From: Gammaproteobacteria bacterium
GTDB taxonomy: Bacteria; Pseudomonadota; Gammaproteobacteria; GCA-001735895
Assembly (NCBI GenBank): GCA_024763505.1
Contig: JANTFI010000005.1
Span: 1-48,156 of the forward strand
Length of the DNA: 48,156 nt
Direction of reading: 5' to 3'
Below the pieces are notes generated by a model. That model had not been told where the DNA came from. It searched no databases and saw only the letters and a program-made list of their open reading frames with translations. The position numbers and the translations under genes are program-made. The stretch's first letter is position 1; every line of letters starts with the position of its first letter. Shown here in pieces: positions 767 through 34,362 of this stretch.

Positions 767-3700
767 TTAATCCGTGTCTGACTGCTCACTGGCTTGCAGG
801 ATCGCCCGGTTGTGCGGTACCTGATTTAAAAAGGCATGGCGCAGCTGGTTGTCGGTTATTTTGTCGGCGCGCTGTTGCAACAGCTGTCGGGTTTGTTGCA
901 GAAAAGGCCCGGCTCGGGCATCGCCTGCCTGTTGCAATACCTGATAGACCGTCAAACGAATCAGTATCGGTTCTTCAGTGCCATCGAGGCTACCGCCTTG
1001 TTGTAAGAAATCGAGTACTTTTACAACTTGAATGTGGGCCTCGGTGAGGTTTCCCTGTTGCAGCGATAGCCGTGCCAGTGCTGCGAAAACTTCCATCGCC
1101 AGGTGTTCACCCGAATTGGCTTCGAACAGCTCAATAGCTTGCTGCAGAGCCTCGTGCGCGGCTTCAAACTCTCCGGTTTCTGTCAGAGCCTGACCCAGCT
1201 GCAAATGGGTAGCGGCCTGCAAGTCACGAAACTCGCCCTGTATCGCAATTTTCAGCGCCTGCTGTGCCAGCTCGATTGCATTTGGAAAACGCTGTTTGAG
1301 ATTGGCTATGATCGCCAGGTTGAGCTGTACCACGCATTCTCCGATACTGTAACCTATGCTGCGCGCGATACTGATCGATTGTTCGAAACAGGCTTCGGCT
1401 CTGTCATAGTCGCCGATACGCAGGTAATTATCGCCCAAAGTATTGTAGGCATTGGATTCTCCTACCTTGTCCTGCAGGTTGAGCACAATGTCGAGGTATT
1501 TCCTGTCGAGTTGAAAACATTGAGCCAAATCACCGCTTTCCGCGCAAAGTGCGGCCAGATTGGTGATGAGGCGGCCTTCAATTTGAGGGTTGGATGCAAG
1601 ACGCGCCAACGTCAGCCCATTTTCGGCGGCTTGCCGGGCATCGGGGAAGTTACCCATCCGGCGCAAACACATGGCTTGAATTTCTTTGGCTTGCGCCGCG
1701 ATGTCTGACTGTTGACAAGCCTGTGCGCGTTGAAACGCACGAATGGCAGATTGCTCCGCTTGCTGGTAGTCACCCGCATCGCAAATGGCACTTGCTCGCC
1801 TCAGTATGGCTTCTGCAATGCGAGGCTCATCCGCTAATTGCTGGGCGGTTTCCAACAGCGCATCGAGGTCGGCTTCATGTGCTTTACGGTCATGCTGTAG
1901 CGAGAGAATCTTTTCGCGTGCTTCGAGCAGGGACCAGCGTAATTTGAGGTCTGCAGGGGTTAGATGAGGTAGCGCGCGTTGAACATAATTGAGCGTTGCA
2001 TCGCCACTGTGACGTGCGGCGGCTTGCTGGGCAGCCTGAGCATAAAACTCGACGGCTCTGGCCCAGTTGTTGGCACATTCATAGTGGTAGGCAGTTATCC
2101 CCGGAAAATCACTTCCACGCTTGTTGGCCAGGCTTTCATACCAGCCGGCGACGGCCGCATGAAAATTCTCTCGATGTGTTTTGAGCAGGCTCAGATAAGT
2201 GACCTTATGCAGAATATGATGCTGAAAACTGTATTTTTGTGCGCCTTCAAATCGACTGCCGGGTTGTTGAATGATCAATTCGCGCTGAACCAGTTCGGGT
2301 AGATATTTCAGGCTGTCAGGTTCGATTGTGGCCAGTGTATTGTCCCAGAACATGAAACCGATGACCGAGGCCAACTGCAACGTCGCGCGCTGCTGCGCAT
2401 TGAGGGCATCCAGTCTGGCCTGCAAAACGCCAGTGAGTGAGTCCGGCACCTGAATATTATCCAGTTTTTGCGGTACCAGACGCCATTGCTCGATATCGCT
2501 GATGATGGCACCATCGTCGATCATCATCTTGACCAGTTCTTCCATGTAAAAAGGGTTACCATCTGCCGAATCGGTAACGAGTTTCAATAAGTCGGATGGA
2601 ATCATATCCAGTCGCTGCAGCAATGTTGTCGCCAGTTGCTGGCTATGTTGATGGTTCAACGCCTGCAGGTCGATGCGTAAGGTATTCTGGCAGACAGGCC
2701 AGGCTGGACGATGCCGATAGAGTTCAGGCCGGGCCAGTGCCAGCAGCAGCATCGGGATATCGTTGTTGGCTTTTAGCAGGTAATCCAGAAAATTCAGCGA
2801 GTCGGTGTCGGCCCAGTGCAAGTCGTCCACGATCAATAATATGGGGTCTCCGCTTCGGTACAGCCTGCGCAGCACTTCGGCAGCGCAATGCAGTCCTCGG
2901 CGGCGAATTTTTTGCGGGTCATCGAGAAGCGCTGCCAGTTTTGGATTATGACTGAAATCCAGCCCGATCAATTGCCCGAGCATTTCTACCGAAAGCATTT
3001 CTTCGGTGCTGAACAGGGGTTGCAGCCTTGAGCAAAACTGTTCGCGTGTATGCCGGATGTCATCTCCTTCCGATAGTTGTAGACGCCAGGCCAGAATATT
3101 GTACAACAGGCCGTAGGGTTGCTGGCGAGCTGTCGGTTGGGAACGACCTTTAAACAGGTAATAACTGTACGGTTGCGTATCGGCCCAGTTTTCAAATTCA
3201 TACAGCAAGCGTGATTTTCCGATGCCGGCTTCAGCAACAATGGTCACGACACGGGGGGCAGGCGGGACCGTGTCGTCGAACAATGCCTGAAATTGCTGCT
3301 GCAAATGCCCAAGCTCAACCTGACGGCCGATCATTTGCGTTTCAACCCCGTCAATGCCGCGCTGAAGATTGTGAAAAGCGCGCGGCTTGGCGGAGTGGAC
3401 CAGATAGGTTTTGAGTGGCTCATCCAGCCCTTTGATGTCAATGGGGGGCTGTTCGGTGACATCGAAAATGCCACGGACATGACGAAAGCAATAGTGGCTG
3501 ATGCGCAAGCCACCGGGCGGCGCTTGCTGCTCCATGCGCGCGGCAATATGAACCGTCAGGCCGCGGATACTGTTATCGGCATCGACTCCGCCGCCAATCA
3601 ATACGCGGCCGGTGTTGATGCCGACCCGCAAATCAAATCCTTCCAGTCCAAATCGATGCAAAACATCGTCAGCGATTTGCCTGGAAGCTTCAAGACAGGC

Positions 3701-4090
3701 GAGCCCGGCTCGCACAGCGTTTTCCGGGTCTTCTTCATACGCATCGTCGGCACCGAAGGCGGCGAGCAGACTGTCGCCGGCATATTGCAGTACACGGCCA
3801 TGAAACCGGTCGATGATATCGCTCAGTTGCTTCAGAGCGCCATCCAGAATGCTTTGTGTTTCTTCCGGGTCAAGCTGACGCGCCATTTGTGTGGATCCGA
3901 CAATATCGGCAAACAGAACACTGACCTGTTTCAATCGTTGTTCGGCAAAATCGGCCCATCCCTGTGACCTGAACGCGTCAAGCTGAGCCTGCAACGGCGC
4001 AATGGCCAGGTTAACGACGTCATCGCCAAGCAGTTCGCGCTGATTATTCAGTGCAGCAATGGCGGATATCAAATCCTGCTGGCTACTCAT
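767..4090 (-). CDS. Class III adenylate/guanylate cyclase fused to an AAA-type ATPase and TPR repeats
   Basis: A 1107-residue cytoplasmic signalling protein. Residues about 50-235 form a class III cyclase domain. Metal-binding Asp62 lies in LFADIVGST and Asp106 in YAGDSLLAAFG; Arg185 in VHIAARMEQ is the usual transition-state arginine. Two positions are unusual: Gln102 where adenylate cyclases often have a base-selecting Lys, and His181 where Asn is usual. From memory this Q/H pair is seen in other cyclase-ATPase-TPR proteins, so activity is plausible but substrate (ATP or GTP) is open. Residues about 252-600 are an ATPase module (Walker A EAGIGKSR at 287-294, Walker B ILLIVDDLHWAD). The rest is alpha-helical TPR-type repeat. 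No membrane segment. Its ATG overlaps the TGA of the upstream RND gene (ATGA), so the two are translationally coupled. A cyclase coupled to a transporter with a cyclic-nucleotide-binding domain suggests it makes that transporter's ligand. Confidence 0.88.
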   Translation of the reverse strand: MSSQQDLISAIAALNNQRELLGDDVVNLAIAPLQAQLDAFRSQGWADFAEQRLKQVSVLFADIVGSTQMARQLDPEETQSILDGALKQLSDIIDRFHGRVLQYAGDSLLAAFGADDAYEEDPENAVRAGLACLEASRQIADDVLHRFGLEGFDLRVGINTGRVLIGGGVDADNSIRGLTVHIAARMEQQAPPGGLRISHYCFRHVRGIFDVTEQPPIDIKGLDEPLKTYLVHSAKPRAFHNLQRGIDGVETQMIGRQVELGHLQQQFQALFDDTVPPAPRVVTIVAEAGIGKSRLLYEFENWADTQPYSYYLFKGRSQPTARQQPYGLLYNILAWRLQLSEGDDIRHTREQFCSRLQPLFSTEEMLSVEMLGQLIGLDFSHNPKLAALLDDPQKIRRRGLHCAAEVLRRLYRSGDPILLIVDDLHWADTDSLNFLDYLLKANNDIPMLLLALARPELYRHRPAWPVCQNTLRIDLQALNHQHSQQLATTLLQRLDMIPSDLLKLVTDSADGNPFYMEELVKMMIDDGAIISDIEQWRLVPQKLDNIQVPDSLTGVLQARLDALNAQQRATLQLASVIGFMFWDNTLATIEPDSLKYLPELVQRELIIQQPGSRFEGAQKYSFQHHILHKVTYLSLLKTHRENFHAAVAGWYESLANKRGSDFPGITAYHYECANNWARAVEFYAQAAQQAAARHSGDATLNYVQRALPHLTPADLKLRWSLLEAREKILSLQHDRKAHEADLDALLETAQQLADEPRIAEAILRRASAICDAGDYQQAEQSAIRAFQRAQACQQSDIAAQAKEIQAMCLRRMGNFPDARQAAENGLTLARLASNPQIEGRLITNLAALCAESGDLAQCFQLDRKYLDIVLNLQDKVGESNAYNTLGDNYLRIGDYDRAEACFEQSISIARSIGYSIGECVVQLNLAIIANLKQRFPNAIELAQQALKIAIQGEFRDLQAATHLQLGQALTETGEFEAAHEALQQAIELFEANSGEHLAMEVFAALARLSLQQGNLTEAHIQVVKVLDFLQQGGSLDGTEEPILIRLTVYQVLQQAGDARAGPFLQQTRQLLQQRADKITDNQLRHAFLNQVPHNRAILQASEQSDTD

Positions 4091-6903
4091 GGCTTTGCGG
4101 GTGAGTGTAGAGATGAATCAAACGATGGATTTTTTTCGTCGGGTAATGCTGACGGTTGAGCCTTGCCGTTGAATTTTTCGATCAAACCATTGCGTTCTGC
4201 CTGACGCTGAGCCTGCACCCGGTTCAAATTGAGAAAAATTCGCGCTGCGATGGATGGGTAAGCACGGCACAGACGTTCCTTATCTTCATCATCGAAACGC
4301 AGCAGGCGGGTTTCACTCACTGTATCGACACTGGCAGAGCGGCGCTGGCCGAAATAGCCGATTTCACCCACCACATCGCCCCGTTGCATGCGTGCCAGTT
4401 CGATGTGGTCATCACCAATATCCTTGAATACGGTGACTTCACCATCGATGATGACATAAATATCACCCGATTCATCCCCTTCGGTGATCAGCCGTGTGCC
4501 CGACGGTAAGGTATGCAGGTTCGCCATCAGTGCGAAGATGCGCGACTGGCGATCGCTCAGGCCACGAAACAGTGGAATGGTTTTTTGCACTTGCGCGCCG
4601 AGGTTGAGGCGCAAGGTATCCCACAAGGTAACGATGCGCAGGCCACTCATGAAGGCAGGCGTCACGAAGATATCCACTAGCCAGGTGCAGAATAATGTCA
4701 ATGCAGCGAGCCAGCCGAACAGTGCCTGCGAACTTAAATCGCCACTGAGCATGGTCAGGAATCCGGCGATCAGAATGGTTTTGGTGACGGTGACCGGGCG
4801 CAACACGGATTGCAGCGCCCGCTGGGCCGCGATGGTTTCGGATCCGGAACGCTTGGCCGCGCTGGCAAAGCGTGACAGATAATGAATGGTGTCATCAATG
4901 GCCAACCCCAGCACCAGAGTTTCGACCAGCACCGAGGTCGGGTTGAGCGAAACGCCGAGTAACCCCAACATGCCGAAATACAGCGCTGTCTGCAGTGCGG
5001 TCGGCAAGGTGGCAAGCAAGCCGATTTTAAATGACAGGAATTGCAGCGACAGGCACAGATAGATCAGCAACAGTGCCAGTGCCACGCTCATCAATTGGCC
5101 AGAGGTAGCCTTGCGCACCGATTCGGTCATGATTACTGCTCCGCCACCCAGATGGATTTCAAGGCCGCCAGGCAACTGTTTCAGACGTAGTTGCAAACGA
5201 TCGAGAAATGGTGCAATGCGGGCGGTGTCATCCACTCGCAGGCGAATCTGGATCAAGCTGGCCGAACGGTCGATATTAACCACACTGCGTTGCCATTCGC
5301 CATCTCCGACAAACAGCATCTGGCGGATCGCATCACGTGAGGCGGGAATAGCGAAACTCGCTTCTGCCGCAAGATAGCGATTGAGCAACTTGACATGGTC
5401 TGCCAGCCCAAGCACCGAACCAACTTCAGGTTGCTGGCTGACCCATTTTTCGAGCTGGTCGAGTTGCTGCAGGATATTGGGGTCGGTAAAGACATCCTCG
5501 GCACCCCCCTCAAAGGCCAGATAAACCGGGTTGACGCCACCCATTTTCTGGTTGATGGCCGCATGATCGATACGAATTCTCGAGTTTTCCGGGAATAGTC
5601 CAATCAGTTGTTCGCCGATCCGAATCTGCGCGGCATACAGTAAAGACCCTGCGAAAACAATCAGGGCGACCCACAGTATCTGTTTGCGATGCTGCTGGTC
5701 AAATTTGCTGAGAGTGTCGATGGCTTGATCGAGCATGGCTTCGCCGGCCAGCGGCTGATCGCGCCGCCGAGGTTTGCAAAAATACAGCAGAGAGGGTACC
5801 AGCAACAAGGTCAGCAGCATCAGGAAGAGGGTTCCCAGTGCTGAAAAAGCCGCAAACTCAATCATCGAGCGCTGTTCGTTCAAGGTCAACGCAAGCAGAC
5901 CGGCAATGGTCGCCAGCCCGGTCACCATCACCGGTATCGAGGTTTCCTGCAGCAGGCTGGCGATGTGCTTTTGCGCTGACAGGGCCGGTTCACGCCGATG
6001 TATTTGCTCGTATTCGGAAATCACATGAGCGCAATATGCCAGCCCCATGGTGATTATGAACGGTGGGGTCAGGGCAGTCACCAGATTGATCGGAATTGCG
6101 GCGACACTGAAACTGGCAAGTACCCAAAGCATCGCCACACAAATGGTCAGTAATGGAATTAGGACTGCGCGCAGACTGCGAAAAACCAGCGCGAGCAAGA
6201 CCGCAATCACCAGCATGATGGCCGGGATCATGGTTTTCATCTGGGAAGTCAGAGTATGGCTTATTTCACTGCGAATCAATGGTGCACCGGTGACATGGAT
6301 GCGTACACCCGGCCCAGCCTGTCGGTCGGCGGTTTGGCGAATCCGGCGAGCCAGATCACTGTGCAGAATTTCCAGCTCATCGCTGGACGCCGGGTGAACC
6401 AGAACCACGGCGGCGCTGCCATCACGCGATACCAGTTGCCCGGCGATCAAGGGATTGTCCAGCGTGCTGTGCCTGAGTTCCCGGGCGATCTGCGGATCTT
6501 GCAGACTGGTCGGGGTCAGAGGTGAATAGTTGAGATCGTTGCGTTCGATGCGCGGTAATCGGGTCAGGGTCAGTGAATCCACTGATTTGACCCCGTCGAG
6601 CTGTTGCAAATCGTGCGACAGGCGATCCAGCCGTTGCAGGTTTTTCGGCAGAAAAACATCATCCACCTGCATCATCACCATGACCGGTTCCCGGTTGCCA
6701 AACCGCAGCCGAACCAGGCTATCGAATTTACGTTCCTGCGGGGTCAGAATCGAGATGGCATCGAGCGAAGGGTCGATCGACAGGCGTAGTCTGGCGTTTT
6801 GAAAATCAAATAATTGTAGCAGAGCCAATAGCGACAGAATCAAGGTGGCCATCAGCACAGCGATGCTGTGCTCAGCGATCCAGCGATGAAACCGGTTTGG
6901 CAC
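4087..6903 (-). CDS. RND/MMPL-family exporter with C-terminal cyclic-nucleotide-binding domain
   Basis: A 938-residue inner-membrane protein of the COG1033-like RND/MMPL type: one N-terminal membrane helix (residues about 12-33), a periplasmic domain, five helices, then the same layout again, about twelve helices in all. The second half has AIDDTIHYLSRF, the usual acidic motif of these permeases; the matching site in the first half reads GLAYCAHVISEY and lacks the Asp. After the last helix comes a cytoplasmic CNB domain (about residues 785-900) starting FRGLSDRQSRIF. Its phosphate-binding cassette reads VGEIGYFGQRRSASV, keeping the Glu and Arg that contact cyclic-nucleotide ribose and phosphate in CRP- and PKA-type domains. 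MMPL exporters move lipids or hydrophobic molecules across the inner membrane. The gene follows the LolA-like gene by 20 bp and overlaps the cyclase start by 4 bp. Substrate unknown; regulation by cNMP is inferred from the domain and the neighbour. Confidence 0.87.
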   Translation of the reverse strand: MPNRFHRWIAEHSIAVLMATLILSLLALLQLFDFQNARLRLSIDPSLDAISILTPQERKFDSLVRLRFGNREPVMVMMQVDDVFLPKNLQRLDRLSHDLQQLDGVKSVDSLTLTRLPRIERNDLNYSPLTPTSLQDPQIARELRHSTLDNPLIAGQLVSRDGSAAVVLVHPASSDELEILHSDLARRIRQTADRQAGPGVRIHVTGAPLIRSEISHTLTSQMKTMIPAIMLVIAVLLALVFRSLRAVLIPLLTICVAMLWVLASFSVAAIPINLVTALTPPFIITMGLAYCAHVISEYEQIHRREPALSAQKHIASLLQETSIPVMVTGLATIAGLLALTLNEQRSMIEFAAFSALGTLFLMLLTLLLVPSLLYFCKPRRRDQPLAGEAMLDQAIDTLSKFDQQHRKQILWVALIVFAGSLLYAAQIRIGEQLIGLFPENSRIRIDHAAINQKMGGVNPVYLAFEGGAEDVFTDPNILQQLDQLEKWVSQQPEVGSVLGLADHVKLLNRYLAAEASFAIPASRDAIRQMLFVGDGEWQRSVVNIDRSASLIQIRLRVDDTARIAPFLDRLQLRLKQLPGGLEIHLGGGAVIMTESVRKATSGQLMSVALALLLIYLCLSLQFLSFKIGLLATLPTALQTALYFGMLGLLGVSLNPTSVLVETLVLGLAIDDTIHYLSRFASAAKRSGSETIAAQRALQSVLRPVTVTKTILIAGFLTMLSGDLSSQALFGWLAALTLFCTWLVDIFVTPAFMSGLRIVTLWDTLRLNLGAQVQKTIPLFRGLSDRQSRIFALMANLHTLPSGTRLITEGDESGDIYVIIDGEVTVFKDIGDDHIELARMQRGDVVGEIGYFGQRRSASVDTVSETRLLRFDDEDKERLCRAYPSIAARIFLNLNRVQAQRQAERNGLIEKFNGKAQPSALPDEKNPSFDSSLHSPAKP

Positions 6904-6923
6904 TTCGACCTCCTGTCGGCAGG

Positions 6924-7733
6924 TTACTCCTGCTCGATATAAAAACCTTCCGGAGTAAACAGGGATTCAGGCAGCCGCTCATTGATGAAGATATCGCTCA
7001 ACCATAGATCGGTGCGCGTACCGGCCCGTAGATCGGACATTCGATAGCCCTGAATCAACCACCACGGATCGATTTCAAGCAGGGTCGAGATATCGGCCTT
7101 GAGCACTTTGCTCAGGGTATCATCGGCCGTGAAAAGTTCTGACTTGAGTAGCAGACAGCTTTGCTGATCGATATAACTGCGCACTTTTCGGTAAAAATGA
7201 CCGGTTCCGCTGTGGCTGGTTTCGATCAGATAGGCTGGCCGGCCTTCGATGGTCTCGTCGGGCAGACGTTTGACGACACCTTCGATCATCAACCCCTGTA
7301 ATTGCTTGATGTCAGCAATACTGAAATCGCTGCCCCATAATTTTTGACTGTCTTCTCCGCCTTGTAGCGTGCGCACCTTGCGTAATGCGGGCAGGTACAA
7401 ATACAGTTTTTCGCTGTCAAGATTCTTCACCACCAGATATGAGGTACCGCGCAGGGCTTTCGGTTCCTGTACCTGTAACGTGATGCGAATGACATCCGAA
7501 GTCTTGGATGGCTTCCAGAAAGCCTTGAACTGGATGGTTTTGGATTTGCCTTCCTTATCAGTCGATTTGATCTGGAAATCGCGTACCGCACCGCGTTCAA
7601 ACACATTGACCCGCATGCATTGTGCAATTTCCTGAATGCTTTTGTCAGCGTTGGAATCTGCCAGCGCAATTCCAGCATTGAAAAACAGACCTAGGCTGAA
7701 AAGGGTCGGGAGTAATCGGTAGTAAGGCTTCAC
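6924..7733 (-). CDS. Outer-membrane lipoprotein-sorting (LolA-like) periplasmic protein
   Basis: A 269-residue secreted protein with an N-terminal signal peptide (basic start, hydrophobic core, predicted cut after ALA at residue 25). The mature part has the pattern of the LolA/LolB-like beta-sheet proteins annotated as outer membrane lipoprotein-sorting protein: SYLVVKNLDSEKLYLYLPALRKVRTL, then SDFSIADI, and a C-terminal LPESLFTPEGFY. In other genomes such proteins stand next to MMPL/RND exporters and are thought to carry a hydrophobic cargo through the periplasm. Here the exporter gene follows by 20 bp. It has no lipobox cysteine after the signal. First gene of the minus-strand operon; a 17-bp palindrome lies about 40 bp upstream. 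Function is inferred from fold and context. Confidence 0.8.
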   Translation of the reverse strand: MKPYYRLLPTLFSLGLFFNAGIALADSNADKSIQEIAQCMRVNVFERGAVRDFQIKSTDKEGKSKTIQFKAFWKPSKTSDVIRITLQVQEPKALRGTSYLVVKNLDSEKLYLYLPALRKVRTLQGGEDSQKLWGSDFSIADIKQLQGLMIEGVVKRLPDETIEGRPAYLIETSHSGTGHFYRKVRSYIDQQSCLLLKSELFTADDTLSKVLKADISTLLEIDPWWLIQGYRMSDLRAGTRTDLWLSDIFINERLPESLFTPEGFYIEQE

Positions 7734-7923: not shown

Positions 7924-8586
7924 TTATCGGTTGTGCAGGTAACGACGGTCATCAAAAGTGGCGATCCACTGTGGTTTGTAGATGACAAAAACAGAGATGA
8001 CGCCACCGGTTATAAAGGCTTCCGGATACATGATCGGAATGAAAATCAGGATGTATTGATCCAGCGTTTCTTCAATCAACTGATTGTCCAGATGTTTGAG
8101 AATTTCATAGGAAATCAATCCGCTAGTCAAAATCGACAAACCGGCTGCCAGAAAAGCGCAGACAAAGATATAAATAAAATAATTGGCAGGTAAATAGCGT
8201 TCATTAAAACGCCAGATGAGGTAAGTAACAGTGACCGGCACGACGCCGGTAATCAGGCCGTTCATGGCAAAAGCAGCGAAATCGGCATCCGTACTGATAG
8301 TCATACCGAGCAATATCAGTGCATTGGCCAGTAAGGCTACTTGCCAGCGGAACATCAGGGTCAGAATACTGCTGCCGAGTAAATGAATCGCCAGCCCGTC
8401 ATCGACATTGACTTTCAATTGCCAGAACAGGAAAACCACCGCACAAGCCGCAAACAGGATATTACTGGAATCCTTTTGCAGCAGAATCTGCCATGGCGCA
8501 CGATACAGTGCCCACAGCAAAACAGGCCAGTACAGCGACTGCGTCCAGAGCCACAAGCCGGGTAAATGTATTGAATGGAGATCCAC
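7924..8586 (-). CDS. Predicted membrane protein, CbiM/ECF-permease-like (COG3235 type)
   Basis: A 220-residue, strongly hydrophobic protein with about six membrane segments. The pattern (N-terminal MDLHSIHLPG, then VDDGLAIHLLGSSILTLMF, then GLITGVVPVTVTYLIW, and a late GGVISVFVIYKPQWIATF) resembles the predicted membrane proteins annotated as energy-coupling-factor ABC transporter permease and distantly related to the cobalt/nickel permease CbiM. No ABC ATPase, T-component or metal-centre maturation gene lies near it, so it stands alone here. It shares its upstream region, with two FNR-like boxes, with the divergent ppdK. Assignment is by recalled sequence pattern; the transported substrate is unknown. 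Confidence 0.55.
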   Translation of the reverse strand: MDLHSIHLPGLWLWTQSLYWPVLLWALYRAPWQILLQKDSSNILFAACAVVFLFWQLKVNVDDGLAIHLLGSSILTLMFRWQVALLANALILLGMTISTDADFAAFAMNGLITGVVPVTVTYLIWRFNERYLPANYFIYIFVCAFLAAGLSILTSGLISYEILKHLDNQLIEETLDQYILIFIPIMYPEAFITGGVISVFVIYKPQWIATFDDRRYLHNR

Positions 8587-11882: not shown

Positions 11883-13337
11883 TCAACTGTTATCCGCGAT
11901 GGCCAACCGATACAACTCAATGTACTTCGCTGCACTGGCTTGCCAAGAGCGGTCCGGAGTCATGGCGTTGATTTGCAATTGTTTCCATCTCGGCTTGTCG
12001 CTGAAATCATCCAGCGCTCGCTGAATTGAGTGCAGCAACGCATCGGGCTTGTTTTCCGGAAGTTGATAGCCATTGGCGATGTGCTGTTCGAAATTTTCCT
12101 GATTGGCGTCTACCACACTGTCTGCCAGCCCGCCGACTTTGCTGGCAATCGGCAGGGTGCCATAGCGCAGGCTATATAACTGATTCAGCCCGCAGGGTTC
12201 AAACAAAGAGGGCATCAGATACAGGTCGGCAGAGGCCTCAATTTGATGCGACAGGCACTCATCATAACCGATGATCACCTTCAGGTTTTTCGGGTAACGT
12301 CTGGCCCATTCCTGCAGCGAGTCTTCGAAAGCCTTTTCCCCACTGCCGAGTACAACCAATTGCAACGGAAACTGCAACAGTTTTTGCATGGCTTCGAGAA
12401 GAATCGGCAAGCCTTTCTGTTCGACCAGACGGCTGATCATGCCGAGCATCGGAATCTGTCGATCGACGGGCAATTCAAGCTTTTTCTGCAACGTCTTTTT
12501 ATTGATCGATTTATCCTTGAGTGAATCAATATCATACTTTTTTGCCAGATAACGGTCAGTCGCAGGGTTCCACTCATCGGTGTTGATGCCATTGAGAATG
12601 CCAGACAGGCGACTGGCGCGATGGCGGAGTAATCCATCCAGCCCGTAACCGAATTCGGCTTGCTGGATTTCCCGGGCATAAGTCGGGCTAACCGTATTCA
12701 GTCGATCGGCAAATACCAGCCCGCCCTTGATGAAGGAAAACAGGCCGTGAAATTCGAGGCCGTGCATGCCCCACAGGCCGCCGGGTAATCCGAGCTCGAA
12801 GAAAACCCGGTCGTCGAACAAGCCCTGATAGGCGAGATTATGAATGGTGAAGAGGGTCGCCGGTCGTTGCAAAAATGTGTCCAGCAACGCGGGCACCAGA
12901 GCCGTTTGCCAGTCATTGCAATGCACCAGTCCTGGTTGCCAGTCGAGTCCGACGCGGTTCAGTGCAATATCGACGGCAACCTGGCAAAACAGTGCGAAAC
13001 GCAAGGCATTGTCCTGCCAGGGTTGACCATTGGTATCGAGATAAGGATTGCCGGGTCGACCGAACAGAGCCGGGCAATGCACCAGCAGTGTTTTCAGATC
13101 ATGGCCGGGCAGTGTGGTTTGCAGGATATCGATATCGTGATCGTAATGACGTGTGGAGGCTACCACCTGATAGTCGTCCAATTGTTCCAGCACACTTTGA
13201 TAGGCCGGTAGCAAAAGACGAATGTCGATGCCTGCTTGCTTCAGTGCCAGTGGCAGACTGCCGGCGACATCGGCCAACCCTCCGGTTTTTACTAATGGGT
13301 AGGCTTCACTACTGATGAAAAGAACTGGCTGTTTCAT
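11883..13337 (-). CDS. glgA: Glycogen synthase (ADP-glucose type)
   Basis: Transfers glucose from ADP-glucose to the non-reducing end of an alpha-1,4-glucan; cytoplasmic GT5 family, two Rossmann-like domains. The N-terminal KTGGLADV (Lys17) is the ADP-glucose-binding signature. The C-terminal lobe has [14 protein letters not shown] and [22 protein letters not shown], with the Glu of the EPCGL motif. The start at 13337 gives 484 residues, close to the usual 477. It fits both the family N-terminus and a 4-nt ATGA overlap with the stop of glgB. A longer frame to 13409 would run into glgB and is rejected. Second gene of the glgB-glgA operon. Confidence 0.96.
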
Positions 13338-15535
13338 GATTTTTTCTTTAATACGATGCCGCCTAGTGGTGGCAGTGTCAATGTCAGCGAGTGTGGCCGG
13401 TTCATCCATGGTCGGTTGTCGGTGGCAATATGTATGCCGTTGCTGATGTTGCTACCACCGTAATAAGCCGAGTCGGAATTGAGGATTTCCTGATATTCAC
13501 CAGCGTCAGGTACTCCGATGCGATAGGGCTCGCGCACCACCGGGGTAAAGTTGAGCACGATGATCAGGGTTTGCCGTGCGCCATCCGGGCTGATGTCGTG
13601 GCGCAGGTAAGATAAAACCGATTGGTCGGTATCGTTGCAATCCAGCCATTCAAACCCCTGGGGTTCAAAATCATGCCGATGCAATGCGGCTTCGCAGCGG
13701 TGCAGTCGGTTCAGGTCGCGGACCAATGTTTTGACTCCATCATGGGGTGGATATTGCAGAGACAACCAGTCCAGTGCCCGGTCATGATCCCATTCATTGC
13801 GCTGGCCGAATTCACTGCCCATGAAAATCAGTTTTTTGCCCGGATAAGTGAACTGGTAGGTGTACAGCAGGCGCAGGTTGGCGAATTGTTGCCATTCGTC
13901 TCCCGGCATCTTATGCAGCATCGATGATTTGCCATGGACCACTTCGTCGTGTGAAAACGGTAATACAAAATTCTCGCTGAACAGATACAGCAAGCCGAAA
14001 GTCAACTGGTTGTGGTGATAATGCCGGTGCACCGGGTCTCTGGTCAGATAATCGAGAGTATCGTGCATCCAGCCCATGTTCCATTTCATCGAAAAGCCCA
14101 GACCGCCGATATCGACAGGCCGGGTGACTTGCGGCCATGAGGTCGATTCTTCGGCTATTACGACACAGCCAGGGTGTTCCGCATGCACAACGCGGTTGAG
14201 TTCGCGCAAAAATTCGATCGCCTCAAGATTTTCATTGCCGCCGTGAATATTCGGCACCCAGTCACCTTGTTCGCGTGAATAATCCAGATACAGCATCGAG
14301 GCAACGGCATCGACCCGCAAACCGTCCAGATGGTATTCCTCGAGCCAGAACAGGGCGCTTGCCAGCAGAAAATTTTTGACTTCGTTACGTCCGTAATTGT
14401 AGATCAGCGTACCCCAGTCGCGGTGCTCGCCCTTGCGCGGGTCTTCATGTTCGTACAAGGCACTGCCATCGAAGCGGGCCAAGCCATGCGCGTCGCGCGG
14501 AAAATGTGCCGGCACCCAGTCGAGAAGGATTCCAATGCCCTGCCGGTGCAGATAATCGACGAAATAATGAAAATCATCGGCATTGCCAAAACGTGCAGTC
14601 GGGGCAAAATAGCCAGTGGTCTGGTAACCCCAGGAGGCATCCAGCGGGTGTTCGGTGATCGGCAACAGTTCGATGTGGGTAAATCCCAGCTCGTTCACAT
14701 AGTCGGCCAGACGGTGAGCCAGTTCACGATAATTGAGAAATCCACCCTGCTCGTCGCGTTGCCAGGAACCCAGATGGACTTCATAGATCGACATTGGTTG
14801 ATGCAGCCAGTCTCGAGTTTTGCGGCCTTGTTGCCAGTCTTCGTCTTGCCACGGGTAGCGGCTTTCATTTCGCAGCCTAGATGCGGTGTGCGGGCGGATT
14901 TCGAACTGCTGGCCGTAAGGGTCGGTTTTTTGTAGTACCTGGCCAGTGTGGGTATTACGGATTTCAAACTTGTACAGGCAATTGCGGTCGATGCCGGGGA
15001 TAAAAATTTCCCATACGCCGCTGCTGCCGCGGCTTCGCATCGGGTGGACACGGCCGTCCCAGTCATTAAAATCGCCTATAACACTGACCCGGCTGGCATT
15101 GGGTGCCCAGCAAGCAAACAGTACGCCATCGATGTCTTCGACCTGATGGCGATGCGCGCCGAGAATTCGGTAGATATGCCAGTGGCGGCCCTGCGCGAAC
15201 AGGTGCAGGTCAAATTCGGCGATCTGCGGGGCAAAGCAGTACGGGTCATAAAAACTGATGGTTTGATGCTGGCTGTCGACTTTCTGCAAAAGATAGGGGC
15301 AACTGATATCATCGTCCATGCCGTTCCACTCGAACAGATCGGTATTTTCCAAGCGGGTGAATTTCGCGCCCGAGGGCATCAGTTTGAGTGACTGGGTGTG
15401 CGGAGAAAAAACCACGATGCGTCTCTGCTTGCCATCCTGGTGCAAGCCCAGCACAGAAAAGGGGTCATGATGAGTCGCTGACAAAATTTTCAATTGACCC
15501 TCGTTCATTGTTGGCGGTTTGGCAAGCTTGGTCAT
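13334..15535 (-). CDS. glgB: 1,4-alpha-glucan branching enzyme
   Basis: Makes alpha-1,6 branches in glycogen by cutting and moving alpha-1,4 chains. At 733 residues it matches the GH13 glycogen-branching enzyme of E. coli (728). It has an extra N-terminal beta-sandwich, a second CBM48 domain ([20 protein letters not shown]), and the catalytic barrel with [14 protein letters not shown] (nucleophile Asp), [12 protein letters not shown] (acid/base Glu) and [12 protein letters not shown] (third acid). An AAGGA ribosome-binding site lies 9 nt before the ATG at 15535. It is the first gene of a two-gene unit with glgA and diverges from glgC across a 349-bp region with FNR-like boxes. Confidence 0.97.
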
Positions 15536-15884
15536 CGATAGGATTCCTTAAACGGTCAGAATTGATACAGGTCAACCCGGCAGATTGATATAGCTCAATC
15601 TTTACATATTTCTGCAGGCCGACATAGCCACTATAGTGATATGCTGGGCTGAAATAAATGACTTATATCCTTCCTCGCTTGATTCGCCACTAGCGGTTCG
15701 GTTCAACCGGCGATAAACTTCAGCAACGGGTGATTGGCAGGATAATATTGCGGCATTATTACGGTGTATCGGTTGCCGATGCATGGGCTCACCGGCAGGA
15801 AGAGAAACTTGCAGGTTTGCACGGCCAGACTGCCACCGTCGCTGGCCGGTTATCGATTTCAATCTCAAATTTGAAGGATGCTTT
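15536..15884. other. Divergent control region between glgB and glgC
   Basis: This 349-bp gap holds no gene. Beside glgB are two FNR-like boxes (separate entries). Further on, 15629-15638 is a perfect 10-bp palindrome CACTATAGTG that contains TATAGT, a possible -10 for glgC. Close to glgC, CGGCCAG (15822-15828) and CTGGCCG (15842-15848) form a 7-bp stem with a 13-nt loop in the presumed leader. GGA motifs occur at about 15797 and in the glgC ribosome-binding site, as in leaders bound by CsrA elsewhere; CsrA control here is only a guess. Confidence 0.5.
15562..15598. promoter_or_regulatory. Two tandem FNR/Dnr-like boxes upstream of glgB and glgC
   Basis: TTGATACAGGTCAA (15562-15575) and TTGATATAGCTCAA (15585-15598) each match TTGAT-N4-ATCAA at nine of ten fixed positions and keep the full TTGA...TCAA core. 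Centres are 23 bp apart, close to two helical turns, so two dimers could sit on the same face. They lie 27 and 50 bp before the glgB ATG and about 290-310 bp before glgC. Whether they activate or repress, and which gene, cannot be read from the sequence. Relatives of FNR such as Dnr/NNR accept GTCAA half-sites. Confidence 0.55.
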
Positions 15885-17156
15885 ATGACTTCACAATGTT
15901 CGTTACGTTTTGTCAGCCGTCTCACTCGCGACACATTGGCGCTGATCATGGCCGGAGGGAGAGGATCCCGCCTCAAGCAATTAACCGAGTGGCGGGCCAA
16001 GCCGGCGGTACCGTTTGGTGGTAAATTTCGCATCATCGATTTCCCGCTCTCCAACTGTGTCAACTCGGGTATTCGGCGCATCGGTGTAATCACCCAGTAC
16101 AAGGCGCATTCACTGATTACTCACACCCAGAAAGGCTGGAGTCACTTGCGTGGCGAATTTGGCGAATTTGTCGAATTATGGCCGGCACAGCAACGAGTGG
16201 ATGAAAAATCCTGGTATGCCGGTACAGCAGATTCAATTTTCCAGAATCTCGATTTGATCAACATGCATGACCCGAAATATGTATTGATTCTGGCGGGCGA
16301 CCATATTTATAAAATGGACTATGGCGCTATGATCGCAACTCATGTCGAAACCCGGGCGGATATCACGGTCGGTTGCATTCAGGTGCCACTGCAGGATGCC
16401 CGTGGCTATGGTGTGATGGAAGCAGAAGAGAATAATCGCATCCGCAGTTTTGCTGAAAAACCACAAGACCCCAAGCCGATGCCGGGCAGCGACTCGGAAG
16501 CATTGTGCTCGATGGGTATTTATATCTTCAACAAGGATTTCCTGTTCGAGCAACTCAAACGCGATCACGACAATCCTGGTTCATCGCGTGATTTTGGCAA
16601 GGATGTCATCCCCGCGGCAATTGATGAATATCAGGTTTACGCCTATCCGTTTCGGGATGTGCAAAGCGGCAAGCAATCCTACTGGCGGGATGTCGGGACG
16701 GTCGACGCTTACTGGAAAGCCAACCTGGAATTGATCGGGGTCACCCCTGACCTGAATCTGTACGACAACGAATGGCCGATCTGGACTTTTCAGGAACAGT
16801 TACCACCCGCAAAATTTATTTTCGATGATGATAAACGGCGCGGCATGGCGGTGGATTCGATGGTCTCCGGCGGTTGTATTATCTCCGGGTCACTGGTGCG
16901 ACATTCGTTATTGTTTTCCAACGTCTGCATCGATGATTTTTCACATATCGAAAACACGGTGGTGTTGCCGGATGTCATTATCGGTAAACATTGCACGATC
17001 AAAAATGCCATTATTGATAAGGGTTGCCTTATTCCTGACGGAACGAAAATCGGTGTCGACAAAACAGCCGATCGCCAGCGCTTTCATGTCTCGGAGGGCG
17101 GGGTCACACTGGTTACACCCGAAATGATGGGACAGGAATTTCATAATGTCAGCTAA
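15885..17156 (+). CDS. glgC: Glucose-1-phosphate adenylyltransferase
   Basis: Makes ADP-glucose from glucose-1-phosphate and ATP, the committed step of bacterial glycogen synthesis. The nucleotidyltransferase domain starts [31 protein letters not shown], with the GGRGxRL loop and the substrate lysine; [11 protein letters not shown] and SFAEKPQDP follow. The C-terminal part is a left-handed beta-helix ([23 protein letters not shown]) involved in allostery and assembly. The start at 15885 has a GAAGGA site 7 nt upstream and gives 423 residues, near the 431 of E. coli; an upstream ATG at 15783 adds an unrelated 34 residues and is rejected. Its end overlaps the GH57 start by 11 nt, and malQ overlaps in turn, so the three form one operon. 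Confidence 0.97.
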
Positions 17157-18852
17157 GAGCCCCGTTGCACCGATCAATGTTGTACTGTACTGGCACATGC
17201 ATCAGCCTGAATACCGCGATTTACGCAGCGGCGAATACAGTCTGCCGTGGACGTATCTGCACGCGATCAAGGATTATGTCGATATGGTTGCTCACATCGA
17301 AAACGAACCGAAGGCTCGTGCGGTGGTCAATTTCGCACCAGTATTGCTGGAACAGATCGAGGACTATGCCGAGCAGCTCGAGGGTTATCTGAAACACGGC
17401 TCGGCCCTGCGTGATCCATTGTTGCGCGCGCTGGCGGATCCTGTCATCAGCAAGAATCAGCAAACGCGACTGACGTTGTTATCCGATTGCCTGCGCGCCA
17501 ATGAAAACCGGCTGATCGAGCGTTTCGATGAATATCGGCAACTGGCTGAAATCGCAAGATCGATTCAGGACAACCCGACGAGTGTCGCTTATTACGACGA
17601 ACAGTTTTTTGCCGACCTGCTGGTGTGGTATCACCTTGCATGGCTGGCAGAAACCGAGCGGCGCAAAAACAAACGCATCCAGTTGCTGATGAAAAAAGGT
17701 TGCCTGTTCTCGGTCCATGATCGCCGTTTTCTGGTGGAAATTATCCATGAAATGATCGTGCCGCTACTCGGGCGCTATCAAAAGCTGGCGCAGCAGGGTC
17801 GAATTGAACTTTCGATGACGCCTTATGCGCATCCTATCATGCCCTTACTGATCGATTTCAAGTCGGCACGCGAAGCAATGCCGGATGTGGAGTTGCCACA
17901 GGCGCCGGTCTACCCGCAGGGCGAACAACGCAGTTTATGGCATATCGTTCGCGGCTTGCAGGTTTTTCAGCGCGTATTCGGATTTACTCCTCAGGGTTGC
18001 TGGCCCTCTGAAGGCAGCGTCAGCGAAGAGGTGGTCGAATTATTGTCTGAGCAGGGCTTTAACTGGCTTGCCAGCGGCGAAACGGTTCTGCGTCATTCGC
18101 TGGCAGCTTCAGGCCTTGGCACCGATCAATGTATTCACACTGCTTATCAACTAGGCGAAAACCGGCCTGCCTGCTTTTTTCGCGATGACGGCTTGTCTGA
18201 TCTGATCGGTTTCGAATATGCCAACTGGCATGCCGATGATGCCGTAGCCAATCTGATCAGTAAAATCGAAAACATAGCCGATGCTTGTGCCGATCATCCG
18301 CAAGCGATTGTGTCGATCATCATGGATGGGGAAAACGCCTGGGAATATTACCCGGAAAATGCTTTTTATTTCCTGTCTGCGTTGTACAAGAAACTGGCCG
18401 CACATGAACGTATTCGATTGACTACCTACAGTGATTATCTGCAGCAACAACCACCGCGGCAGAATTTGAGCAAACTGGTGGCCGGAAGCTGGGTCTATGG
18501 CACTTTTTCAACCTGGATTGGCGACAAGGACAAGAACCGAGCCTGGGACATGCTGGTCGAAGCGCGTCAGGTGTACGATGAAGTGCTGGCACAAAACAAG
18601 CTCAGTGAAACTGAATTACAGCGCGCCGAACGGCAACTGGCGATCTGCGAAGGCTCGGACTGGTTCTGGTGGTTTGGTGACTATAATCCGGCCGATTCGG
18701 TGCAGGCCTTTGATGAAAAGTACCGGTTACATCTGTGCAACCTGTACAGCATCCTCGGGCGGGAACCGCCGGAATACCTGTCGCATGCCTTTTCTCAAGG
18801 CAGTGGTTCACCAGCCCGGGGTGGGGTGATGTTGCCGGGTAAACAGCTTTGA
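17146..18852 (+). CDS. Glycoside hydrolase family 57 alpha-glucan enzyme
   Basis: A 568-residue cytoplasmic GH57 protein of the alpha-amylase/alpha-mannosidase-like group (COG1449). The first family motif WHMHQP is at residues 16-21, [12 protein letters not shown] carries the likely nucleophile Glu region, and [15 protein letters not shown] holds the acid/base Asp. There is no signal peptide, so it acts on internal glucan. Members act as amylases, 4-alpha-glucanotransferases or branching enzymes, and the sequence alone does not decide. Placement inside a glgC-GH57-malQ operon, overlapping both neighbours, points to glycogen remodelling. In Nitrosomonas-like and sulfur-oxidising bacteria similar GH57 genes also sit with glg genes (from memory). 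Confidence 0.9.
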
Positions 18853-20336
18853 GTCAGATAGCATTTCTTGACCACCGGCGTGCCGGAGTATTGCTGCATC
18901 CGACCTCACTGCCCGGTGAATATGGCACCGGCGACATCGGTGCCGAGGCGTATCATTTTATCGATTTTATGGTAGCCAGCGGGCTATCGGTTTGGCAAAT
19001 GTTGCCGCTCGGGCCGACTCATAATGATGGTTCGCCGTACCAATGCCTGTCGGTTCATGCCAGTAATACGCAGTTGATCGATCTGGACTGGCTTGAACGT
19101 CAGGGCTGGCTGAAAATTTCGAAAATCGAAGCAGACCGGCAATCAACGGATTTTCGGGAACAGTGTCTCAGGCAAGCTTTTTCGGGTTTTCAAAAACAGG
19201 CGCAAAGCGACTGGCACAATCGTTTGCAACAGTGGGCCAACGAACAGTCATACTGGCTCGATGATTATGCCTTGTTTATGGCAATCAAGCAGGCACGGCA
19301 AGATGCCACCTGGAATGACTGGCCGGCACCGCTACGCCAACGCGAAGCCGGTGCGCTGGTTGCAGCCCGTCGTAAATACCGCGCTCAGATGGATTTTATT
19401 GTGTTCGGGCAATTTGTATTTCATACCCAGTGGCATGCGTTGCGTGAATATGCTCGAGCACGAAGTATATTGCTGTTTGGCGATATGCCTTTCTATGTCG
19501 CATACGACAGTGCCGATGTGTGGGCGCAACGTGAGCATTTTCTGATCGATCGGGATGGGCATTGCAGTCAGGTTGCCGGAGTGCCACCGGATGCCTTTTC
19601 CGAGCAGGGCCAACGCTGGGGTAATCCACTGTATGATTGGTCCCATCATCAACAGTCCGGTTTTCGCTGGTGGCAACAGCGCTTCGCCAGCCAGCTCGAA
19701 TACTTCGACCTGATCCGCATCGACCATTTTCGCGGACTCGAAGCCTGCTGGCATATCGACGCTGATGAGCCAACCGCGATCCATGGCCACTGGGTGAACA
19801 GCCCGGGTCAAGAACTGTTGCAATCATTGACCGATGCATTTGGTCCATTACCGTTGGTGGCGGAAGACCTTGGCTTGATCACGAACTCAGTGATCGATTT
19901 GCGTGAGCAATTCCACTTGCCTGGCATGAAAGTTTTACAATTCGCTTTTGATGGTGATGCGCGCAATCTGTATTTGCCACATAACCACCAGCGCAACGGG
20001 GTGGTTTATACCGGTACTCATGACAACAACACTACACTGGGATGGTATCGGCAACTAGATCCCGATTCTCGTCGTTTTCTGCACCATTATCTGGGGGTAA
20101 GCGAAAGTACAGAACTGGATATGCCATGGGTGATGAACCGGCTGGCGCTGTGCTCGGTGGCTGAGCTGGCGGTCCTGCCGATGCAGGATATCCTCAGTCT
20201 CGATGCCCACAGTCGGATGAATGTGCCCGGAACCACGGAAGGTAATTGGCAGTGGCGCTTCGAATGGTCGCAATTATGGCCGCAACTGGCTGCTGATTTG
20301 CGCCAATTGTCGGGCTTGTATCAGCGCCTGATATGA
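18849..20336 (+). CDS. malQ: 4-alpha-glucanotransferase (amylomaltase)
   Basis: Disproportionates alpha-1,4-glucans by moving maltodextrin segments; GH77 family, 495 residues, close to the usual 500. Motifs: AGVLLHPTSLPGEYGTGDIG at the N-terminus, LFGDMPFYVAYDSADVW, IRIDHFRGLEACW (nucleophile Asp), PLVAEDLG (acid/base Glu) and GTHDNNTTLGWY (third acid). The best start is a TTG at 18849 that overlaps the GH57 stop TGA by 4 nt; no ATG lies near the family N-terminus. The start suggests coupled, low-level translation. In this context it recycles short chains left by phosphorylase. It converges on the hydrolase gene with 14 bp between stops. Confidence 0.95.
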   Translation: MSQIAFLDHRRAGVLLHPTSLPGEYGTGDIGAEAYHFIDFMVASGLSVWQMLPLGPTHNDGSPYQCLSVHASNTQLIDLDWLERQGWLKISKIEADRQSTDFREQCLRQAFSGFQKQAQSDWHNRLQQWANEQSYWLDDYALFMAIKQARQDATWNDWPAPLRQREAGALVAARRKYRAQMDFIVFGQFVFHTQWHALREYARARSILLFGDMPFYVAYDSADVWAQREHFLIDRDGHCSQVAGVPPDAFSEQGQRWGNPLYDWSHHQQSGFRWWQQRFASQLEYFDLIRIDHFRGLEACWHIDADEPTAIHGHWVNSPGQELLQSLTDAFGPLPLVAEDLGLITNSVIDLREQFHLPGMKVLQFAFDGDARNLYLPHNHQRNGVVYTGTHDNNTTLGWYRQLDPDSRRFLHHYLGVSESTELDMPWVMNRLALCSVAELAVLPMQDILSLDAHSRMNVPGTTEGNWQWRFEWSQLWPQLAADLRQLSGLYQRLI

Positions 20337-20350
20337 ACTCAGGGCAATCT

Positions 20351-21253
20351 CTATGGGTTGTTATTGATGTCTTTTAGAATGATATTGGAGTAATTGATGG
20401 TGGTATCTTCGTAATTGAGGTGCGATTTCAATTCCTGCCAGACCGATTCCGAATTGATGATGCGGCTGTGACCCCAGCCCTTGGGGGTTATCAATTTAGT
20501 CATAGGGAAACGTTTGCAAAAGCGAACCGAGTCTGCGACCGGTGATTCGTCATCGTTCTCGTCATGAGCAATGACTGTGACATCGCTGTATTTTTCCAGT
20601 CTGCGGCTCAATTCCAGTGCAGCATATTGTTTCGGATACTCAGCGATAAACCTGGCCGCATATTTTTTCAGGATATCCGGATGCAAATTTAATTGCCCGA
20701 GCTTGCGTAGAAAAAACAACTTGTAATTGAAAATCGGCGCGATCAGAAAGATTGGCAAGCCCTCGATCAGGGTGGGTCTGGCATTACAGATTATGAGACT
20801 ACCGACATCATGCCCTACTACTGAGGCGATGCCTTCAGGATGATTTTTTTTGATCGATTGAATGATAAAATTGCTCGTCGATATCAATTGTTGCAGAGAC
20901 GCCTGCTTGTTTTCGCTGCGCTCATGGCCGAGATGATCAAATGCCAGCGCGCTAAATCCGCATTCATTCAATCCCCTCATCAATGGAAAAAACTGGTAGG
21001 CACCCCCTCCCCAACCGTGAATGAAAATCACCATTGGTCCTTTGCCGACCTGGTAGGCATTGATTTTTCCTTCGGGCGTTTTGAGCGTGCGCTGTTTAAA
21101 CCGTTTGGGTAAATTGATGTCGCGGGGTTTTTTGGTGTTATGCCAGAAAAGCTGGGAGCTAATCTTTTTTTCTGCCCAACTCGGCATCAGGCGGTTCCAG
21201 ACCAGGCTCAGCTTGCTGAGAAACGATACTTTTCCGGTTTTGATGGATGTCAT
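20351..21253 (-). CDS. Alpha/beta-hydrolase-fold protein with Asp at the nucleophile position
   Basis: A 300-residue protein with an alpha/beta hydrolase core: oxyanion region VIFIHGWGGGAYQ, nucleophile elbow VVGHDVGSLI (Asp149 where lipases and esterases have Ser), an acidic stretch AHDENDDE near residue 230 and His262 in PKGWGHSRI. An Asp nucleophile is the mark of haloalkane dehalogenases and epoxide hydrolases (GHDWG), so an ester bond-forming mechanism of that kind is possible, but the rest does not clearly match either group. No signal peptide; the N-terminal 60 residues are basic. It stands alone between malQ and a non-coding region, and its function is unknown. The fold assignment is firm; the substrate is not. 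Confidence 0.8.
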   Translation of the reverse strand: MTSIKTGKVSFLSKLSLVWNRLMPSWAEKKISSQLFWHNTKKPRDINLPKRFKQRTLKTPEGKINAYQVGKGPMVIFIHGWGGGAYQFFPLMRGLNECGFSALAFDHLGHERSENKQASLQQLISTSNFIIQSIKKNHPEGIASVVGHDVGSLIICNARPTLIEGLPIFLIAPIFNYKLFFLRKLGQLNLHPDILKKYAARFIAEYPKQYAALELSRRLEKYSDVTVIAHDENDDESPVADSVRFCKRFPMTKLITPKGWGHSRIINSESVWQELKSHLNYEDTTINYSNIILKDINNNP

Positions 21254-21519
21254 GGTTTGAACAATTCCCTGTCTGTCAAACGAAAGGGGCGCGATGCCTT
21301 TTTAAAACGCCCCAGTTTACTGCAATTTTCCAGTGAAAAGCATAAAACCGACAAGCGTTCTAACAGGATAGCGGTCTGTTAATACCGAATATTTTGACTC
21401 AACTCGTAATGATGGTTCACATCCTGATTTCGAGATTAAATCGTGAAATAATTGATTACCTTGCTGTTTCTTCCTTTAGTTATTGTTTCCTGCGCTTAAG
21501 TAATAGATTTGAGCGGGCA

Positions 21520-21845
21520 GGCCAAGGTAGATCCGATTGGCCGCAAAGACTAGAAACTGCAGTGCTAAAAAAAATACGAAAACAAGCGAAAGGTAAAAAA
21601 AGAAACGAAAGGATACGCCGGATAAAGTGAAAAGCGGGGTTCAGCGGGTATCCGGCAGGAAAAACCTGTTCAGGAATAGCACCAGCGGAATAAGACAATG
21701 TTAACAGGTCGGCCTTATAAACGAGGATGTTGCTCGTAATAAACCTGGAATAATGATCGGGCCGGGCAAGCTGTGGGTCAGCAAGAGCGAGCAGGTACCA
21801 AAAGCACTGGAGAAAGGTTCTGACAGGGCCCGGAAACGTGAACGC
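21520..21845. ncRNA. Candidate structured RNA or element (nested stems)
   Basis: Successive stems, all perfect: GGCCAA 21520-21525 with TTGGCC 21537-21542; GGATAC 21611-21616 with GTATCC 21648-21653; ACCTGTT 21664-21670 with AACAGGT 21703-21709; ACGAG 21721-21725 with CTCGT 21733-21737; CCGGGC 21762-21767 with GCCCGG 21838-21843, which encloses GTCAG 21777-21781 with CTGAC 21830-21834. The nesting of the last two is more than a run of chance hairpins would suggest. It does not match RNase P, tmRNA, SRP, 6S or a group II intron domain V by eye. The strand is undecided. It could also be a remnant of a small mobile element. Confidence 0.28.
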
Positions 21846-21946
21846 AGAATACCGTAGTGGAAATTCTGGCAAGTGCTGAATTTCATTAGCCAAACTGATA
21901 ATGACTGCGATCACGGCAACTGGCTAAACATCCAATCGCCGTTTCA

Positions 21947-22015
21947 GGGCTGACCCGGGTTTTCCGGCCGCCGAATCAAATATCTAAACAATCTCGACCG
22001 CGGGTGTGTCAGCCC
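21947..22015. repeat. Inverted repeat GGGCTGAC / GTCAGCCC downstream of glgP
   Basis: A perfect 8-bp inverted repeat: GGGCTGAC at 21947-21954 and GTCAGCCC at 22008-22015, separated by 53 bp that include GC-rich self-complementary stretches (CCGGCCG, CCGCGG). It begins 22 bp after the glgP stop. No T-run follows, so it is at best a weak terminator; it could be the end structure of a small element. Confidence 0.4.
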
Positions 22016-22037
22016 AATATTTACAACCGTCTCAGTG

Positions 22038-24599: not shown

Positions 24600-24718
24600 A
24601 ATGTCGTTCCGTTTTGAGTAAATGGTTGCTGTCTTGTTCCAGACCGCTGGCGAGTACTCGCATTCTACCTGGCCGGGAGTTTGCCGGGTTTCGGCTGTTC
24701 ATTCAAAAAACTCTTGCT

Positions 24719-26362
<1,644 letters not shown>

Positions 26363-34339: not shown

Positions 34340-34362
34340 CCCCGACCAGATTGCGAATATCC

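Follow-up and report, generated by a model that had tools for sequence, protein, structure and literature searches.

A possible cyclic-nucleotide-gated lipid exporter with a LolA-like carrier and, in some lineages, an adjoining STAND-sensor cyclase

Gene order and features of the locus

The window, the whole analysed stretch of 48,156 nucleotides, contains three minus-strand open reading frames at 767-4090, 4087-6903 and 6924-7733. A lolA-like gene is followed after 20 bp by a gene for an MMPL exporter that ends in a cyclic-nucleotide-binding (CNB) domain, and this second gene overlaps that of a nucleotide cyclase by 4 bp (ATGA), the cyclase start lying inside the exporter stop. Three minus-strand genes at spacings of 20 and -4 bp had been described in an earlier note on this DNA, in exact agreement with the ORF coordinates, and the domain assignments made there (cyclase with ATPase/TPR module, MMPL-CNB exporter and LolA-like protein) correspond to Pfam matches above curated cut-offs and are also recovered with NCBIfam. 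The features are as follows.

6924..7733, minus strand: LolA-like periplasmic protein (PF17131, Sec signal peptide-like N-terminus, nearest solved structures)
4087..6903, minus strand: MMPL/HAE3-type RND exporter with C-terminal CNB domain, 938 aa (Pfam, AlphaFold2)
4891..4896, minus strand: Asp670-Asp671 in TM10 of the exporter, invariant, with a putative proton-relay role taken from the RND family
4189..4596, minus strand: CNB domain, residues 770-905 of the exporter (Pfam, AlphaFold2, PDB matches)
4333..4368, minus strand: phosphate-binding cassette GEIGYFGQRRSA with E847 and R855, one residue below canonical length (cassette alignment)
767..4090, minus strand: class III nucleotide cyclase-STAND ATPase-TPR protein, 1107 aa, signal peptide not apparent (Pfam)
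3395..3943, minus strand: cyclase domain with D62 and D106 (metal), Q102 and S174 (purine), H181 and R185 (transition state) (residue comparison)
2111..3358, minus strand: STAND ATPase with Walker A AEAGIGKS (286-293) and Walker B LLIVDDLHWAD (418-428) (Pfam, translation)
887..1933, minus strand: TPR region, likely the sensor or partner-binding part (Pfam)

No riboswitch or other Rfam RNA was found in the window, promoter and terminator scans of the window were uninformative, and the operon contains no cargo gene. A CbiM-like gene upstream (7924-8586) was considered as a further member of the system and set aside, given a 190-bp gap and no noted recurrence in the neighbourhoods of relatives. 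Elsewhere in the window, a glycogen/alpha-glucan cluster (11883-26350), comprising glgA, glgB and genes for a GlgC-type nucleotidyl transferase, GH57 and GH77 proteins, a phosphorylase and a phosphoglucomutase, adjoins the locus with no visible link to it, and a PAS-GGDEF-EAL protein, a c-di-GMP enzyme, is encoded at 34351-36882.

The exporter-carrier pair and its relatives

The lolA-like gene starts with GTG, preceded by an AGGA Shine-Dalgarno-like sequence, and its product matches PF17131 LolA_like at 7e-31, above the curated cut-off. An N-terminal signal-like sequence in the translation is consistent with periplasmic export, and among solved structures its nearest relatives are 9tp6, 3bk5 and 4z48, of which two bear the name outer membrane lipoprotein-sorting protein. 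The exporter matches Pfam MMPL in two stretches (6e-32, above the curated cut-off) and has the two MMPL repeats, 12 TM helices and two periplasmic loops that define the MMPL/HAE3 family. In an AlphaFold2 model (pLDDT 84.5), it adopts an RND body of the MmpL/HpnN/NPC1 type, nearest to the lipid exporters MmpL4/5/3, HpnN and NPC1, and the CNB domain follows the last membrane helix, a position that would place it in the cytoplasm. The acidic pair D670/D671 in TM10, as expected of a proton relay, is invariant across 34 divergent sequences, suggesting that the pump is probably active; TM4 has Y290/H293 where Asp is expected.

The carrier and exporter genes travel together over a wide taxonomic range. 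About 30 fused MMPL-CNB matches came from a class-wide sample of 369 genomes. When about 85,000 species genomes were scanned, 51 loci of the window's type emerged, spread over Gammaproteobacteria, Myxococcota/Deltaproteobacteria and Candidatus Binatia. Within clade 1, that of the window exporter, 38 of 53 non-redundant loci have a lolA-like gene no more than two genes from mmpl-CNB, in nearly every case just upstream and in the same orientation. Judged from these genomes, the pair is an old, widespread module and the conserved core of the system, which upholds the earlier proposal of exporter and periplasmic carrier as a unit. Two genomes of the same genus (G001 and G005) carry exporter orthologues with a lolA-like gene immediately upstream, at identities to the window protein of 61-62% in G001 and of 54% and 70% for the two fragments of a split copy in G005. 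An apparent frameshift, either genuine or an assembly error, breaks this G005 copy (L034, 8031-10765) into two ORFs.

Other MMPL-CNB families occupy different settings. The members of a second clade sit in pqiA-pqiB-pqiC-lolA-like operons, pqiABC being a putative phospholipid transport system (PMC10897342). The order pqiA-pqiB(MCE)-pqiC-lolA-like-MMPL-CNB is seen in many Gammaproteobacteria and in another class of the phylum (L104, L106, L109, L110, L113, L115, L204-L208, L210, L216 and L218), a set in which the Pfam check covers L104 and L110 and the five genes are not all readable in every locus. These exporters are possibly cyclic-nucleotide-gated RND pumps tied to Pqi lipid transport. A solitary paralogue, in which MMPL-CNB is followed by a GGDEF-family domain, occurs in the same genus and the same family (G000:C52 (L031), L037-L040 and L043-L046); the domain matches PF00990 at 5.5e-14 in L044, and its GGDEF signature looks degenerate. 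A subgroup of lolA-mmplCNB loci (L132, L137, L140-L142, L144 and L147) often includes genes for an approximately 890-aa HEAT-repeat membrane protein and an approximately 150-aa stand-alone CNB-like protein, and has no cyclase-STAND gene.

On the basis of fold similarity and of the pqiABC context of the sister clade, the cargo of the window exporter would be a lipid. The pump could instead serve efflux of drugs or hydrophobic toxins, with the LolA-like protein as adaptor. The HAE3 pump AmeD works with a DUF1329/LolA-superfamily protein in monoterpene tolerance (PMC6394551), and among subfamily models the window exporter fits TIGR00921 HAE3 best, though with a score below its cut-off. Cargo is not readable from sequence, but a lipid is favoured by both the MmpL/HpnN/NPC1-like fold and the pqiABC linkage of the sister MMPL-CNBs, and we consider efflux very unlikely.

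The CNB domain, the cyclase and their linkage

The receptor end of the exporter is well defined as a CNB domain. It matches cNMP_binding at 1.2e-14 over residues 798-881, above the curated cut-off, and AlphaFold2 predicts a CNB fold (pLDDT 86) whose best PDB matches are CRP/CNB domains, with the beta-roll and the cassette Glu and Arg of that family. The Glu (E847) is kept in 51 of 53 clade-1 sequences and the Arg (R855) in 52 of 53, and mean column identity is 60% in CNB columns vs 52% over the whole exporter; on these alignments, the pocket is under strong constraint. The earlier statement that the domain keeps its Glu and Arg is correct as to the residues but overlooked their spacing, which is 8 rather than the canonical 9 or the 10 of CRP. 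Measured against CRP-, PKA-, PKG- and SthK-type domains and other MMPL-CNB clades, the cassette is one residue shorter in all 53 clade-1 sequences except the divergent L163, and this consistency across the alignment identifies the shortening as a clade trait, not damage. Residues 848-851 have pLDDT below 50, the cassette being the least confident ordered part of the full-length model. By analogy with a Xanthomonas cGMP receptor, an 8-residue spacing may be compatible with ligand binding: binding by that CNB domain requires E90 and H98, also 8 apart (PMC3770947), a comparison drawn from residue numbers and not from an alignment with the window domain.

The cyclase protein matches Guanylate_cyc (7.6e-22), AAA_16 (5.2e-14) and TPR_12 (1.9e-24), all above curated cut-offs. 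D62, D106 and R185 provide the two metal-binding Asp and the transition-state Arg of a class III cyclase, whereas Q102, S174 and H181 replace the purine-specifying Lys and Asp(Thr) and the transition-state Asn; the corresponding residues of canonical adenylate cyclases are Lys, Thr/Asp and Asn. Within the cyclase-STAND family, Gln often occupies the Lys position, and changes at the Asn position are likewise common and extend to linked homologues. From this residue pattern, catalytic activity is plausible. A cytoplasmic location is expected for both the cyclase and the CNB domain.

The same features bear on whether the CNB domain might be a structural or protein-docking element that has lost nucleotide binding, beside a cyclase that is maybe a scaffold of weak or no activity. 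A cassette one residue short throughout clade 1, low model confidence at that cassette and atypical cyclase residues all fit such a role. It is nonetheless decidedly unlikely, as near-invariance of Glu and Arg in very divergent sequences is hard to explain without ligand binding, the cyclase keeps its metal Asp and Arg, and the unaligned Xanthomonas domain binds cGMP by way of two residues that are also 8 apart (PMC3770947).

Linkage of the cyclase to the pair is recurrent and uneven. A cyclase-STAND-TPR gene lies directly beside the pair in five loci, upstream of lolA in L124, L149, L156 and L108 and downstream in the window. In L149 (2362-9043, Salinisphaerales), lolA-like and mmpl-CNB are immediately preceded by two such genes in tandem, and in L128 the TPR tail of a protein of this kind is found three ORFs upstream, where the contig ends. 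In the exporter tree, the linked loci and L128 all fall within a single subclade of 13 members (support 99). Genomes with a linked cyclase hold one or two such genes each, all of them linked in the genomes of L149 and L156, and the observed adjacency in 5 of 10 readable subclade genomes compares with 0.015 expected by chance (Poisson 7e-12), an approximate estimate because the subclade was picked after the tree had been seen and the genomes are related, some of them incomplete. L111 and L162 were noted and left out of this estimate. L127, with a divergent cyclase, was discounted as a linked case, about 30 such genes being present in its genome, and a join of contigs L198 and L138 that would give G405 a linked cyclase was rejected, the cyclase ORF stopping before its contig end and the edge gene of L138 having no similarity to cyclases. 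No cyclase-STAND gene was found at gene offsets 4-6 from the pair.

Most clade-1 loci have no adjacent cyclase, and none adjoins lolA-mmplCNB in G001 and G005, the closest orthologues, or in G365. The G001 genome encodes a cyclase orthologue on another contig (55% identity over the full length); no orthologue of the window cyclase was found in G005 or G365. In the cyclase tree, the window enzyme pairs firmly only with this G001 orthologue, while those of L124, L149, L156 and L108 fall in a separate clade that includes two further genes not shown to be linked, and forcing the window cyclase together with the other linked cyclases is mildly rejected (AU test, p 0.035). This placement on different branches suggests that the cyclase-STAND-TPR type was probably recruited more than once, the simplest reading of the trees being repeated recruitment with loss or separation in near relatives. 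The earlier description of a self-contained unit must, therefore, be narrowed: the cyclase is not a fixed part, being unlinked in G001 and absent from G005, although its adjacency is far above chance and extends to several lineages. Lack of conservation outside close relatives had been named as evidence against that unit, and the pattern found is the reverse, with linkage absent in close relatives and recurring in distant ones. The tie between cyclase and pair is most simply read as functional but not obligatory.

A looser relationship would have the CNB domain reading the general cAMP/cGMP pool, with the neighbouring cyclase mobile, independently acting and co-transcribed but not dedicated to the exporter. 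The majority of clade-1 loci without an adjacent cyclase, the unlinked orthologue kept by G001 and the other class III cyclase domains held by genomes without a linked cyclase are all consistent with this arrangement. It is less easily reconciled with adjacency in half of the readable subclade genomes, far above chance and involving different cyclase branches, and we consider it somewhat unlikely.

Proposed mechanism and comparison with known systems

In the preferred reading, a proton-driven MMPL/HAE3 exporter would draw a lipid-like, hydrophobic cargo from the inner membrane and hand it to the LolA-like periplasmic carrier for passage towards the outer membrane. On the cytoplasmic side, the CNB domain at the exporter's end would bind a cyclic mononucleotide and switch the pump on or off; in the window's genome, the signal would be supplied by the presumably co-transcribed cyclase of class III, with its STAND ATPase/TPR part sensing a cytoplasmic cue. 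We infer the lipid cargo, the gating, the co-transcription and the feeding of this CNB domain by this cyclase. Cyclic-nucleotide gating of a lipid exporter, with a co-transcribed source in some lineages, is favoured with a confidence that stops slightly short of even. Several observations speak against it: the near orthologues in G001, G005 and G365 lack an adjacent cyclase, the cassette is short and of low pLDDT, the cyclase residues are atypical, and no gene for a cargo accompanies the three. More tentative is the broader proposal of a class of envelope lipid exporters gated directly through a shortened cassette, to which a STAND-sensor cyclase has been independently added as a private source in several lineages.

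The exporter shares its fold and likely lipid export with MmpL3/4/5 and the hopanoid exporter HpnN, at low sequence identity. These proteins are not known to have a CNB domain or a LolA-like partner, unlike the window system. AmeABCD of Castellaniella and the MMPL-LolA-like TOL_3187 of Thalassolituus combine the same broad RND subfamily with a LolA-superfamily periplasmic protein, but the accessible portions of both reports mention neither a CNB domain nor a cyclase, and Ame includes an outer-membrane DUF1302 protein that the window locus lacks (PMC6394551, PMC6304351). The sister MMPL-CNB and LolA-like genes lie in operons with pqiABC, whereas the window locus has no MCE/Pqi genes (PMC10897342). 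CNB domains are also carried by the membrane transport proteins SthK, MloK1 and MFS-CNBD fusions (the last in PMC10710835), which are ion channels or MFS proteins rather than RND pumps; the SthK and MloK1 cassettes are of canonical length. A parallel in regulation is XC_0250/XC_0249 of Xanthomonas, where a class III cyclase with TPRs, its product proven to be cGMP, adjoins the gene of its own CNB effector; that effector, however, is no transporter but a diguanylate cyclase, and the accessible part of the account describes no STAND ATPase (PMC3770947).

HAE3-LolA pairs, MFS-CNBD fusions and cyclase/CNB-effector pairs have each been described (PMC6394551, PMC6304351, PMC10710835, PMC3770947), and CNB-gated channels are known from solved structures. 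No MMPL-CNB or cyclase-RND system was found in the literature searched, a body of work that excludes most subscription papers, nor was the combination of these parts in one RND operon. If the proposed mechanism is correct, direct second-messenger control of an RND lipid exporter would represent a new way of regulating lipid traffic to the outer membrane, and cytoplasmic STAND/TPR sensing would be linked to envelope composition. Given how widespread the MMPL-CNB family is, such a result would bear on many genomes.
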